A stretch of DNA of 41,890 nt, taken from contig JACUUX010000022.1 of NCBI GenBank assembly GCA_014859105.1, positions 1 to 41,890 of the forward strand. The letters run 5' to 3'. Below, in pieces: positions 38,398 to 41,843 of this stretch; the first letter of the stretch is position 1; each line of letters opens with the position of its first letter. The translations under genes were made by a program, and so were the position numbers. The notes under the pieces were generated by a model, which was given only the letters and a program-made list of their open reading frames with translations, was not told the origin of the DNA and made no database searches. The stretch is from Nitrospirota bacterium. GTDB taxonomy: Bacteria; Nitrospirota; Thermodesulfovibrionia; Thermodesulfovibrionales; SM23-35.

Positions 38398-38556
38398 GTG
38401 GGGGAAAATACAAAAAAGACATTTCTTTATCGTCTCAATGGTTTTTCTGTTAGCGGGAGTAGAATGTTTGGCATAATGATTGCTCAGTCAGTCAGTCAGT
38501 CAGTCAGTCAGTCAGTTTTTATATTATATAGCAGAAAAAGAAATATCAGACTTTGA
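38398..38556 (+). other. possible leader ORF containing the CAGT tract
   Basis: GTG at 38398, preceded by a purine-rich GGGGGAAGAA, opens a 52-codon frame that passes through the CAGT repeats (AQSVSQSVSQ) and stops at TGA 38554-38556, one base before the terminator-like hairpin. Loss of one CAGT unit would join it to the frame open to TAA at 38660-38662, 8 bases before the avd ATG. The overlapping +2 frame reads KRHFFIVSMVFLLAGVECLA before a stop, like a signal-peptide relic. Translation of any of these is unproven. Confidence 0.3.
38485..38516. repeat. tetranucleotide repeat (CAGT)8
   Basis: Eight perfect tandem copies of CAGT, 32 bases, lie in the DGR leader between promoter and avd. Tetranucleotide tracts of this length change copy number by polymerase slippage in other bacteria and cause phase variation. 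Confidence 0.95.
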
Positions 38557-38641: not shown

Positions 38642-38670
38642 CGAGTGGGGGTTAATGCCTAAGGTTGAGG

Positions 38671-39039
38671 ATGGCGCGATATGAGCATCTGCCAATATAC
38701 AAGAAGGCTATCGATCTTGCCGTTTATATTGAAAATGTGGTCAGAGGCTTCTCGCGGTATCATAAGTACACGATCGGTGCCGACCTGCGGAACCTCTCCC
38801 GTGAGGCCATCAGGCTCATCATATCGGCAAATTCAAGGGAAGAAAAACTTAATACGCTGAGGTCTCTGAGAGATACAATCGAACAATTGAAGGTGACGAT
38901 CAGAATATGCAAGGAGGTGAAGGCATTCAGGAGCTTCAATTCCTTCCAGCAGGCTGCCGAGTGGGTAGTTGACCTTGGCAGACAGAGCGAGGGGTGGATC
39001 AGAAGCGTAAAACAGAAGAAGAGAGCAACAGTGCAATAG
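38671..39039 (+). CDS. avd: DGR accessory variability determinant (Avd)
   Basis: The 122-residue protein starts MARYEHLPIYKKAIDLAVYIENVVRGF and is all helical, ending in a basic tail. This matches Avd, the four-helix protein that forms a pentamer, binds the DGR reverse transcriptase and template RNA, and is needed for cDNA synthesis. Avd is related to the 23S rRNA intervening-sequence protein family, and such proteins start in the same way, but the neighbouring RT and variable proteins make Avd the right call. ATG at 38671 has AAGG upstream; a TTG at 38665 is possible. It is 19 bases before target 1. Confidence 0.88.
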   Translation: MARYEHLPIYKKAIDLAVYIENVVRGFSRYHKYTIGADLRNLSREAIRLIISANSREEKLNTLRSLRDTIEQLKVTIRICKEVKAFRSFNSFQQAAEWVVDLGRQSEGWIRSVKQKKRATVQ

Positions 39040-39058: not shown

Positions 39059-39784
39059 ATGAGAACAACAATGGCATCATCGAGAAAATGTGAGTCTATC
39101 TTGTATGTCATGCCGAACTTGATCCGGCATCCGTTGTTTTTTTGGTTTGCCCGATCAGCAGGTCGGCCAATAATGAATTGTATAAATGTAAGCTCACTAT
39201 GGAGCTTTTGCATTGCTGTGGCGTTGCTGTGCTTTTGTCTTGTTGCCCCCTCCGATGCCTTCAAGCTCCCCGACACCGGCCAGACGAAGTGCTATCAGGG
39301 CGTATATCCGTATGCCGAAATCCCCTGCGAGGGGACAGGGCAGGATGGGGAGTACAACATCAATCCTCTTTCCTATACTGACAACGGCAACGGCACGGTA
39401 ACTGACAACAACACCGGCCTTATGTGGCAGGAGCAGGATAATGGCAACACTTACAACTGGTACAAGGCTTCCGGTACTTATGACGCTACATATAACCCGT
39501 CGTCAGAAAGCGTCTGCGGCTCTCTTACGCTCGGCGGCTTTTCAGACTGGCGCTTGCCGACAAAAAAGGAACTCATTACAATTGTTGACTACGGTATTCC
39601 GTATCCGGGTCCAACAATCAAAACGACTTACTTCCCGAATACAAAATCGTCCAACTATTGGTCGTCTACCACGTACGCCTACTATCCGGACTACGCGTGG
39701 GGCGTGGGCTTCTACAATGGCAGCGTCTACTACGGCTATAAGGACTACTACCTCTATGTGCGGTGCGTGCGGGGCGGACAGTGA
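39059..39784 (+). CDS. DGR target protein 1 (DUF1566/Lcl domain variable protein)
   Basis: The 241-residue protein has a hydrophobic segment around residues 46-66 (LWSFCIAVALLCFCLV) that should act as a signal peptide after an unusually long N-terminal extension. The DUF1566 domain follows: YTDNGNGTVTDNNTGLMWQ, FSDWRLPTKKELITI and YWSSTTYA. Its last 43 codons are the variable region. DUF1566 proteins of this type are known DGR targets with a C-type-lectin-like ligand fold, displayed outside the cytoplasm. ATG at 39059 has a perfect AGGAGG. The extension includes NLIRHP, encoded by a dispersed DNA repeat. The stop overlaps the RT start (GTGA). Confidence 0.9.
   Translation: MRTTMASSRKCESILYVMPNLIRHPLFFWFARSAGRPIMNCINVSSLWSFCIAVALLCFCLVAPSDAFKLPDTGQTKCYQGVYPYAEIPCEGTGQDGEYNINPLSYTDNGNGTVTDNNTGLMWQEQDNGNTYNWYKASGTYDATYNPSSESVCGSLTLGGFSDWRLPTKKELITIVDYGIPYPGPTIKTTYFPNTKSSNYWSSTTYAYYPDYAWGVGFYNGSVYYGYKDYYLYVRCVRGGQ
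39106..39135. repeat. half copy of the GTCATTCC-family repeat in target 1
   Basis: GTCATGCCGAACTTGATCCGGCATCC resembles the left half of the element at 9087 and forms a small hairpin (GCCG/CGGC). It is in frame inside the N-terminal extension of target 1, giving VMPNLIRHP. Confidence 0.65.
39653..39781 (+). other. variable region VR1 of the DGR
   Basis: These 43 codons at the end of target 1 align with VR2 (41571-41702). Over the first 25 codons the two differ at 12 bases, all at codon positions 1 or 2 of codons ending in C or T, and none at position 3. The last 27 bases (from TATGTGCGG to GGACAG) are identical and GC-rich, as expected for the initiation-of-mutagenic-homing site. Variable codons fit an AAC/AAT template changed at adenines. 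Confidence 0.9.
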
Positions 39785-39927
39785 TAGATTTCTTTGACAA
39801 CTTGATGATTTTTCTGGTAAACAGACAGAGCGGGAAAAGGTCGAAGAGCCGTCCTTCGAACAGGCCGGAATTGTTGATGCACCATGCATTGGCGAGTGAG
39901 CCTATGATCACTGTGCGCCCCGCACGC
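39765..39927. repeat. 21-nt inverted repeat spanning the RT start
   Basis: The sequence at 39765-39785 (GCGTGCGGGGCGGACAGTGAT) matches the reverse complement of 39907-39927 at 20 of 21 positions. The 5' arm holds the end of VR1, the GGGGCGG that could serve as Shine-Dalgarno, and the GTG start of the RT. The 3' arm encodes ITVRPAR within the RT. Confidence 0.85.
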
Positions 39928-41265
39928 CCTGTCTGCTTTGTAGCCAAACAGCCGAAACCGAGGGAGATATTTGCAGCCGATTTCAGGGACAGGGTGGTGC
40001 ATCATCTCCTTGTCCCGCATATTGAAAAGATATTCGAGCCCCAATTCATCCATGACTCCTATGCCTGCAGAAAGGACAAGGGTACCCATGCTGCTGTGAA
40101 ACGACTGAAGTATTTCATGAACCGCGTTACGAAGGGCGGCCATGTGGCTGCATGGTTCATGCAGCTTGATATCAGAAGTTTCTTTATGAGCATAGACAGG
40201 GAGATCCTTCTTGACATCCTTTTTCGACATTTACGTGATGACAGGCTGACTGCCCTTGCAAAAAAGGTCGTATTGCAGGACTGCACAAAAAACTTTGTAT
40301 ACAAGGGCGATCGCCGCCTCCTTCAGGGGATACCTCAGCATAAGTCTCTTTTTCATATTCCCGCAGGCAAGGGGCTGCCTATCGGAAATCTCACATCCCA
40401 GTTCTTCGGCAATGTCTATCTCAATGAGATGGACCAGTTTGTGAAGCATACGTTGAAGGTGCGGTATTACCTCCGGTATGTGGATGACTTTATCCTCCTT
40501 GATCCGGACAGGCAGCGGCTTATCGAACTAAAGGAGAAGATAGGCGAATTCCTGGATAAGCGGCTGGCCCTTTCGCTGAAAGAGGAGGCGACGCTCAGAC
40601 GAGTCTCTGAGGGCGCGGATTTTCTCGGCTACATCGTGAGGCCGGATTATGTCCTTGTGCGCAACAGGGTGGTCGGAAACCTCGGGGCAAGGCTCAGGAG
40701 CTTTCATGAAGAGATGGTCCAATATCCGAAGGTGAAAGAACAGCAATTTATCCGTATCCATCTTCGTGAAGAAAAAGTCCGGAAGCTCAGACAGACGCTT
40801 GCATCATACCTGGGACATTTCAAGCACGCTAATGCATACAGGCTGATACGCAGCCAGTTTGAGAAATACCGGTATCTGAAATATATCTTTGCCGTAGATG
40901 ACAAAGAGCGGCTTCTACCGATGTACGAGCCGCCGTTTGAGCCTGCAACGCTGCGGGGACAGTATACGTGGGTGGCTAAACAATACGGCGACCACTGCAT
41001 CTTTTTTCAGGTTGGAAGCTTCTGTGAGTTTTATGGCGCACAGGCAGAGCGCTACGGCCGGTTCTTTGGGCTTAAACCGCTGGCGGAAACGAGGATGTGC
41101 GCTACTCAGTGCGGGTTTCCGGTGCGGTATCTGAAAGACTTCAAGACAAAGACCTTTAGTGAAGGGATGCCGTATGTAGTTGTTTCTGAACGGGGCTATT
41201 ACCCTTCGGGTTTAAAGAAAAGAGTGATCTCGGAGATATTCAGAATGGAAAGGAGAAGAATATGA
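39781..41265 (+). CDS. DGR reverse transcriptase with C-terminal MutS-like domain
   Basis: This enzyme copies template RNA into adenine-mutated cDNA that replaces the variable regions. Starting at GTG (overlapping the target 1 stop as GTGA) it has 494 residues. Numbered from that GTG: KPREIFAADFRDRVVHH near 60, HDSYACRKDKGTHAA near 92, catalytic Asp in QLDIRSFFMSID near 130, the DGR-type GLPIGNLTSQFFGN at 198-211, and YVDD at 233-236. A thumb and linker follow. Residues about 393-470 resemble MutS domain I, with Phe-Cys-Glu in QVGSFCEFYG where MutS has its Phe-X-Glu mismatch probe. An ATG at 39877 is an alternative start that would still keep the RT core. Confidence 0.93.
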   Translation: MIDFFDNLMIFLVNRQSGKRSKSRPSNRPELLMHHALASEPMITVRPARPVCFVAKQPKPREIFAADFRDRVVHHLLVPHIEKIFEPQFIHDSYACRKDKGTHAAVKRLKYFMNRVTKGGHVAAWFMQLDIRSFFMSIDREILLDILFRHLRDDRLTALAKKVVLQDCTKNFVYKGDRRLLQGIPQHKSLFHIPAGKGLPIGNLTSQFFGNVYLNEMDQFVKHTLKVRYYLRYVDDFILLDPDRQRLIELKEKIGEFLDKRLALSLKEEATLRRVSEGADFLGYIVRPDYVLVRNRVVGNLGARLRSFHEEMVQYPKVKEQQFIRIHLREEKVRKLRQTLASYLGHFKHANAYRLIRSQFEKYRYLKYIFAVDDKERLLPMYEPPFEPATLRGQYTWVAKQYGDHCIFFQVGSFCEFYGAQAERYGRFFGLKPLAETRMCATQCGFPVRYLKDFKTKTFSEGMPYVVVSERGYYPSGLKKRVISEIFRMERRRI

Positions 41266-41843
41266 AGAGGAGGTTTATCTTATTGTTTGTGATGTCGGCA
41301 GCATTATTGTGCTCAACGGTGACAATGGCTGCGCCGTTTACGGACAATAAAAATGGAACAGTTACGGACAACAGGACCGGCCTTATATGGCAGCAGGGGG
41401 AACCGGGTTGGATGATATGGCCGTCCGCACTGGATTATTGCAATGGGCTTACACTCGGGGGCCACTCAGACTGGCGCCTGCCGAACATCAAGGAGCTCGA
41501 GTCCTTAACGGATGATGAAAGATACCATCCTGCGATAGATACCAATTTCTTTCCGAATGCTTATGCGTCCTACTATTGGTCGTCTACCACGTACGCCAGC
41601 GATCCGGGCTACGCGTGGATCGTGGTCTTCAGCTATGGCTGCGTCTACGGCTACTATAAGTACGACTCCTACTACTATGTGCGGTGCGTGCGGGGCGGAC
41701 AGTCTGGGTTATTTGGGAATTTAGAAGTTTCTCCTTCATCCCATGATTTTGGAGAGGTAGAGGTAGGAACATGTTCGTTAAATCCGCAGGTATTTGCTTT
41801 AGGTAATTTTGGCGATGGCGAAATCAATGTTTCGATGATATAA
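41262..41843 (+). CDS. DGR target protein 2 (DUF1566 domain), probably 3'-truncated
   Basis: The 193-residue protein has a clear signal peptide (MKRRFILLFVMSAALLCSTVTMAA). Its DUF1566 domain (FTDNKNGTVTDNRTGLIWQ, HSDWRLPNIKELESL, YYWSSTTYA) ends in variable region VR2 at residues about 104-147. Unlike target 1, the chain continues with LEVSPSSHDFGEVEVGTCSLNPQVF, the start of an immunoglobulin-like ASPM/choice-of-anchor domain, and stops early at about 40 residues. Such domains are normally about 90-100 residues, so the gene looks cut. The ATG overlaps the RT stop (ATGA) and has GGAG upstream. Confidence 0.87.
   Translation: MKRRFILLFVMSAALLCSTVTMAAPFTDNKNGTVTDNRTGLIWQQGEPGWMIWPSALDYCNGLTLGGHSDWRLPNIKELESLTDDERYHPAIDTNFFPNAYASYYWSSTTYASDPGYAWIVVFSYGCVYGYYKYDSYYYVRCVRGGQSGLFGNLEVSPSSHDFGEVEVGTCSLNPQVFALGNFGDGEINVSMI
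41571..41702 (+). other. variable region VR2 of the DGR
   Basis: These 44 codons align with VR1 but have one extra codon in the Tyr-rich stretch before TATGTGCGG. Changes sit in NNC/NNT codons (AGC, GAT, GGC, ATC, GTC, TGC, TCC). The GC-rich 3' end is identical to VR1. Here the protein continues after the variable region. Confidence 0.88.

Follow-up and report, generated by a model that had tools for sequence, protein, structure and literature searches.

A DGR reverse transcriptase with a C-terminal MutS domain I in a Nitrospirota bacterium

A truncated DGR cassette on a chromosomal contig

The window analysed here is one entire contig of 41,890 nucleotides (JACUUX010000022.1) from the 3.16 Mb genome of a Nitrospirota bacterium (GenBank assembly GCA_014859105.1). 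Genes for YceG, GcpE, a chaperonin and cytochromes lie in the neighbourhood, indicating a chromosomal setting. An open reading frame at 39763-41265 (on the forward strand, as are all genes and repeats below unless stated) matches both RVT_1 (E 2e-16) and PF01624 MutS_I above cut-off, with no other domain detected. Within it, positions 39930-41265 encode a DGR reverse transcriptase (RT) that is truncated at the N-terminus and ends in a MutS domain I. The RT catalytic core (RVT_1, 39955-40635) contains the sequence PIGNLTSQ (GNLTSQ near 40384) and a YVDD motif (approximately 40477-40488), which conform to the (I/V/L)GxxxSQ and YxDD motifs of DGR RTs. PHROG 1423 also matches the protein (E 1e-88), and a sequence comparison with solved structures places the RT body closest to PDB entry 8ub7 (E 4e-58), the DGR RT of Bordetella phage BPP-1.

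The accessory gene expected of a DGR, avd (accessory variability determinant), is present at 38665-39039 (PF22296 bAvd, E 1e-14). Its product also matches PHROG 3206, 'Avd protein of DGR' (E 1e-23), while a match to NF033474 falls under the cut-off of that model. Two target proteins with an Lcl_C (DUF1566) domain were identified, the first at 39059-39784 (Lcl_C residues 112-238, PF07603 E 1e-34) and the second at 41262-41843 (Lcl_C residues 32-144, PF07603 E 1e-36). Variable repeats were located by comparison with the template repeats of related cassettes: VR1 (39648-39784) forms the 3' end of target 1, and VR2 spans 41563-41703. When VR1 is compared with the template repeats of loci L066, L067 and L068, 21-23 of 29-30 mismatches fall at a template adenine; for VR2 this applies to 24 of 30-31 base mismatches. 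The combination of avd, an RT with the DGR motif and two Lcl_C targets that contain variable repeats confirms the DGR setting proposed in a first-pass annotation of this DNA. A spacer follows VR1 (39785-39929, delimited by alignment to L041/L066 and L067), and an inverted, 95% identical 21-nt copy of the VR1 end (39765-39785) is found on the reverse strand at 39907-39927. The two arms of this inverted repeat are 121 nt apart, and the spacer arm is similar in the relatives.

Comparison with intact relatives reveals that approximately 540 bp, including the template repeat and the RT N-terminus, are absent at a junction located at 39926-39932. Spacer and RT are separated by 527 nt (L067) or 567 nt (L066) in the relatives as opposed to ~20 nt in the window, where the spacer runs directly into the RT. 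Alignment to the relatives identifies the first ~56 codons of the open reading frame as translated spacer rather than RT sequence, and RT sequence begins at codon ~57. The N-terminus is incomplete, missing ~50 residues that are conserved in relatives (ENLYxxYLxCRRNKR...). No template repeat for the window variable repeats was found in the window or in the rest of the assembly, so that the window provides two variable repeats and no template repeat with which to display an adenine-biased difference. We considered whether collapse during assembly could have produced the gap, but the two sides of the junction share just ~5 nt, too short for such an event, and a real deletion is therefore the likelier cause. 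With neither a template repeat nor the start of the RT, the window cassette is probably dead. It was probably once active, since both variable repeats differ from the templates of relatives mainly at adenines (21-24 of 29-31).

The RT tail is a MutS domain I

The C-terminal tail extends from 40957 to 41232, with the Pfam-matched part covering 40957-41166 (residues 399-468). It scores 26-29.4 bits against PF01624, for which the curated cut-off is 20.6. A phmmer search of PDB sequences with the last 123 residues of the RT returned Taq MutS as the sole match (E 3.3e-6, residues 19-111), placing GSFCEFYG of the tail on GDFYECFG of Taq MutS. Phe420-Cys-Glu422 (41020-41028; codons starting at 41020 for Phe420 and 41026 for Glu422) thus aligns with the mismatch-reading Phe-X-Glu (FYE) of Taq MutS. 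When the whole host genome was searched with PF01624, only two places were found, the RT tail and, on a different contig, a full-length MutS.

A model of the tail was built from a nine-sequence tail alignment (pLDDT 80). All 21 Foldseek matches obtained with this model at E<=0.001 are MutS (best E 2.5e-5). VIA-align superposed the tail on MutS with Z 10-11 over 96-106 residues, the first unrelated fold appearing at Z 2.5. Chance as the origin of a 25-30 bit profile score is ruled out by the fold, the PDB match and the existence of homologues. Profile searches of the window open reading frame detected none of MutS domains II-V, including the ATPase; the protein ends at domain I, and the tailed relatives likewise terminate there with no further MutS domain. 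The C-terminal domain of the window DGR RT is thus a MutS domain I, and a complete one. The first-pass annotation had proposed this from the order of residues, together with a Phe-Cys-Glu at the position of the MutS Phe-X-Glu. Pfam, the Taq MutS sequence match and the fold agree on the former, while the Taq MutS alignment verifies the position of the latter; the coordinates given in that annotation (40960-41210) are correct as well. It had also named two observations that would count against the proposal, a lack of structural similarity to MutS domain I and a lack of Phe-X-Glu conservation among homologous RTs. The superposition provides the similarity, and the homologues described below provide the conservation.

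Conservation and distribution of the tail

Related RTs were collected through searches with the RT body in two sets of 395 genomes, each from a different phylum, and in 369 genomes from one class. Together with a first phylum search using the RT-dominated full protein, these yielded 20 tailed RTs that were used for motif counts. Sequences obtained through a tail scan with the pattern FQVGxF[YCL]E were excluded from the counts, as the pattern itself presupposes the motif. Of these 20 tails, none of which was retrieved by querying with the tail alone, 17 retain Phe-X-Glu. The remaining three have YFE, CLE (L169) and RVL (L171), and the Glu is kept in 19/20. Ranked by conservation among the 148 tail columns, the Phe is 10th and the Glu 15th. 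A single-sequence tail query returned no match from genome contigs and an alignment query was required; with the latter, Nitrospirota were the closest named relatives. A FQVGxF.E stretch unlike ordinary MutS was also seen in a 2514-residue Flavonifractor/Pseudoflavonifractor protein (L085 and L087, 2673-10214).

In an RT tree, the tailed RTs are located inside one fully supported clade (26 tailed and 4 tailless rows), with members from Nitrospirota, Thermodesulfobacteriota, Pseudomonadota, Acidobacteriota and one Myxococcota-labelled bin. Fusion of the tail is hence an inherited trait of one DGR-RT clade, and Phe-X-Glu is strongly conserved in its cellular members. In intact RT plus tail cassettes, the template repeat stands immediately 5' of the RT, and the mismatches between it and the 1-3 variable repeats are biased towards adenines; one such intact relative is L078, on contig 3 of Candidatus Magnetobacterium casense. 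Of the 26 tailed loci other than the window, 24 yielded TR/VR pairs. In genome G233 (L066), for example, 18/18 and 20/20 mismatches are at adenines. Judged by these sequence features, the intact tailed relatives are active-looking DGRs.

Several tailed copies look broken (L068 3711-5635, L067 982-2670, L072 4896-5480, L187 8141-9130 and L047 4135-5199), the defects comprising a tail in another frame, an early tail end, a remnant, a missing RT core and a missing RT start; cassette turnover therefore seems high. Short repeated elements, such as SLPKRG...NPLSRG and RHSRESGNPE, are inserted in frame within RT/tail genes (L066 3552-5621, L067 982-2670, L068 3711-5333 and L073 371-2455), and resemble palindromic repeats that enter genes.

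Perfect short tandem arrays were observed 5' of tailed cassettes at no fewer than eight loci, at a distance of 1.4-2.6 kb from the RT SQ motif. The window array, (TCAG)8.2 at 38484-38516, lies ~150 bp 5' of avd and may affect expression of the cassette. The others are found at L041 5729-5756, L042 6250-6322, L043 6684-6738, L045 379-459, L068 2453-2476, L179 9861-9908 and, in L180, from -2264 to -2202 relative to the RT motif. Units differ between loci, with 4, 7 or 10 nt and 6-20 copies. Perfect arrays with 4-9 nt units were seen in 0/28 tailless cellular loci at that position and in 0/80 viral loci anywhere. The arrays look like phase-variation repeats and could switch the cassette.

Most of the tailless DGR RTs that the RT searches also retrieved end ~150-180 residues past the SQ motif. 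Related viral RTs were represented by 83 loci (80 contigs picked by RT body and 3 picked earlier by full protein), and the tail was found in none of these. A scan of viral contigs with the tail pattern gave no match. Among phage and plasmid records, a single weak match came from a phage record lacking annotation, and plasmids gave none. A separate gene for the MutS-like accessory protein MSL standing beside tailless RTs was considered and rejected, as no tail-like open reading frame was present at the 28 tailless cellular loci or the 83 viral ones. A later tree that includes viral representatives places viral tailless RTs within the tailed clade at approximately four positions, three of which are forced by well-supported branches. 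Repeated loss of the tail is therefore probable. Adjoining the main viral branch is the tailed row L169, with its CLE motif, and an earlier tree pairs L169 with the RVL-containing L171. Both DGRs with a spoilt motif, as well as those without a tail, still look active, which indicates that mutagenic homing can proceed without the tail.

These observations bear on whether the tail could be mainly a scaffold that fastens the RT to RNA or Avd, with Phe-X-Glu serving general DNA or RNA binding. Such a role would be compatible with the loss or change of the Phe in 3/20 tails, with working tailless relatives, and with the fact that the Asp of MutS GDFYE is not kept. However, the columns that are kept in the tails are the MutS-specific ones (Q, FQVG, F-x-E, G and R), and the mismatch-reading Phe is an exposed wedge residue in MutS with little structural duty. 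We consider a scaffold unlikely.

Possible roles of the tail and comparison with known systems

DGRs raise the question of how mutated cDNA with many mismatches survives chromosomal mismatch repair. The tail may offer one answer by binding the mismatched cDNA/target duplex and shielding it from host MutS, a role to which, as the likeliest of those considered here, we assign a little less than an even chance. Annealing of the adenine-mutated cDNA with the variable repeat would most likely coincide with replication and would yield a duplex with some 10-25 mismatches. Insertion of the tail Phe into the kinked, mismatched DNA would follow the manner of MutS. Domain I on its own lacks the clamp, the ATPase and the MutL-signalling parts of MutS; without clamp and ATPase the tail would neither slide nor recruit MutL, and blocking or holding is consequently likelier than repair signalling. 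The tail would thereby retain the complex of RT and cDNA at the target site and conceal the mismatches from full-length host MutS, such that mutations could persist to the next replication. Against this role, MutS domain I is not known to bind mismatches in isolation from the rest of MutS.

Hosts of tailed RTs have a separate full MutS (1/1 for the window host, and 8/8 and 10/11 for further hosts). The tail is therefore no substitute for a missing host MutS, and a host MutS is available as a competitor. For a reconstituted DGR, retrohoming was reported to depend on the direction of replication, with targets co-directional with replication being favoured (PMC12875486). In that system mutS was deleted, which was expected to help preserve substitutions (PMC12875486). 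The same 2026 study found that mutS deletion left an 18-nt insertion in a kanamycin assay unaffected, which counts against protection from MutS (PMC12875486). The active appearance of DGRs with a spoilt motif or no tail weighs in the same direction.

We compared the fraction of template adenines that are changed, with the restriction that target type, template length and clade differ between the groups and confound the comparison: it is 0.425 for tailed DGRs (23 loci), 0.514 for tailless cellular (24) and 0.540 for tailless viral DGRs (76), with Mann-Whitney p-values of 0.003 and 2e-6 for the tailed group against the two tailless groups, respectively. More adenine change in the presence of a tail, as predicted from shielding, was thus not seen; since templates and targets differ, the comparison neither proves nor kills that model. 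Taken at face value, the lower fraction would fit a tail that limits mutation, with the RNP rejecting over-mutated duplexes or passing them to repair, leading to moderate change of surface proteins on the chromosome. Beyond the confounding, the changed bases per repeat are equal in tailed and tailless cellular DGRs (17.3 and 16.9; 13.8 in tailless viral DGRs), and an isolated domain I would have no MutL-signalling parts with which to pass duplexes on. A limiting role is very unlikely.

The same data relate to a possible function during cDNA synthesis, whereby the tail would sense RNA/cDNA mispairs behind the active site, steady the primer end and aid extension opposite adenine. As the tail joins the RT thumb directly, it could reach the nascent hybrid, and both the conservation of Phe-X-Glu and the association of tails with one RT clade are in keeping with this. 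However, the tailless viral RTs related to the tailed clade change a larger fraction of adenines, indicating that mispairs can be extended without it. MutS furthermore reads DNA duplexes, whereas an RNA/DNA hybrid would have to be recognised here, and the full-length RT model (pLDDT 65, pTM 0.44) is too poor for placement of the tail. A role in synthesis therefore appears quite unlikely. Returning to protection of the duplex, the distribution of tails could be explained by a shielding domain in chromosomal DGRs that arose once and was shed repeatedly upon transfer of the element into phages, with the motif decay to CLE and RVL occurring in the cellular lineage that adjoins the main viral branch; we regard this history as possible but doubtful.

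The clade with its tailless viral sisters provides a natural comparison, and permits a mutation test involving two residues. Knowledge of what the tail does would also help where DGRs serve as hypermutation tools in bacteria whose mismatch repair is active. In the literature searched, the coverage of which was limited and does not prove novelty, conservation of Phe-X-Glu, the clade-wide fusion and the viral loss were not found.

A link between MutS_I and DGRs is already known: the first-pass annotation had mentioned MutS-like domains near DGRs, and PMC10053308 lists HRDC and, citing its reference 12, MSL among the established DGR accessory proteins, with MSL placed in PF01624. Going by the description in that citing paper, MSL and the window tail are both PF01624 domains associated with a DGR, so the tail qualifies as an MSL; in the window, the domain forms the C-terminal end of the RT. 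With MutS1 domain I (E. coli, Taq) the tail has in common the fold, Phe-X-Glu and other domain I invariants. Unlike MutS1, it is fused to an RT, does not keep the Asp of GDFYE, and lacks domains II-V (connector, core, clamp and ATPase). The BPP-1 system follows the same logic of Avd, template repeat and variable repeat as the window cassette. In contrast, the BPP-1 RT, at 328 residues, has no room for a MutS domain, and its DGR targets a phage tail-fibre protein, whereas the window targets are Lcl_C proteins.
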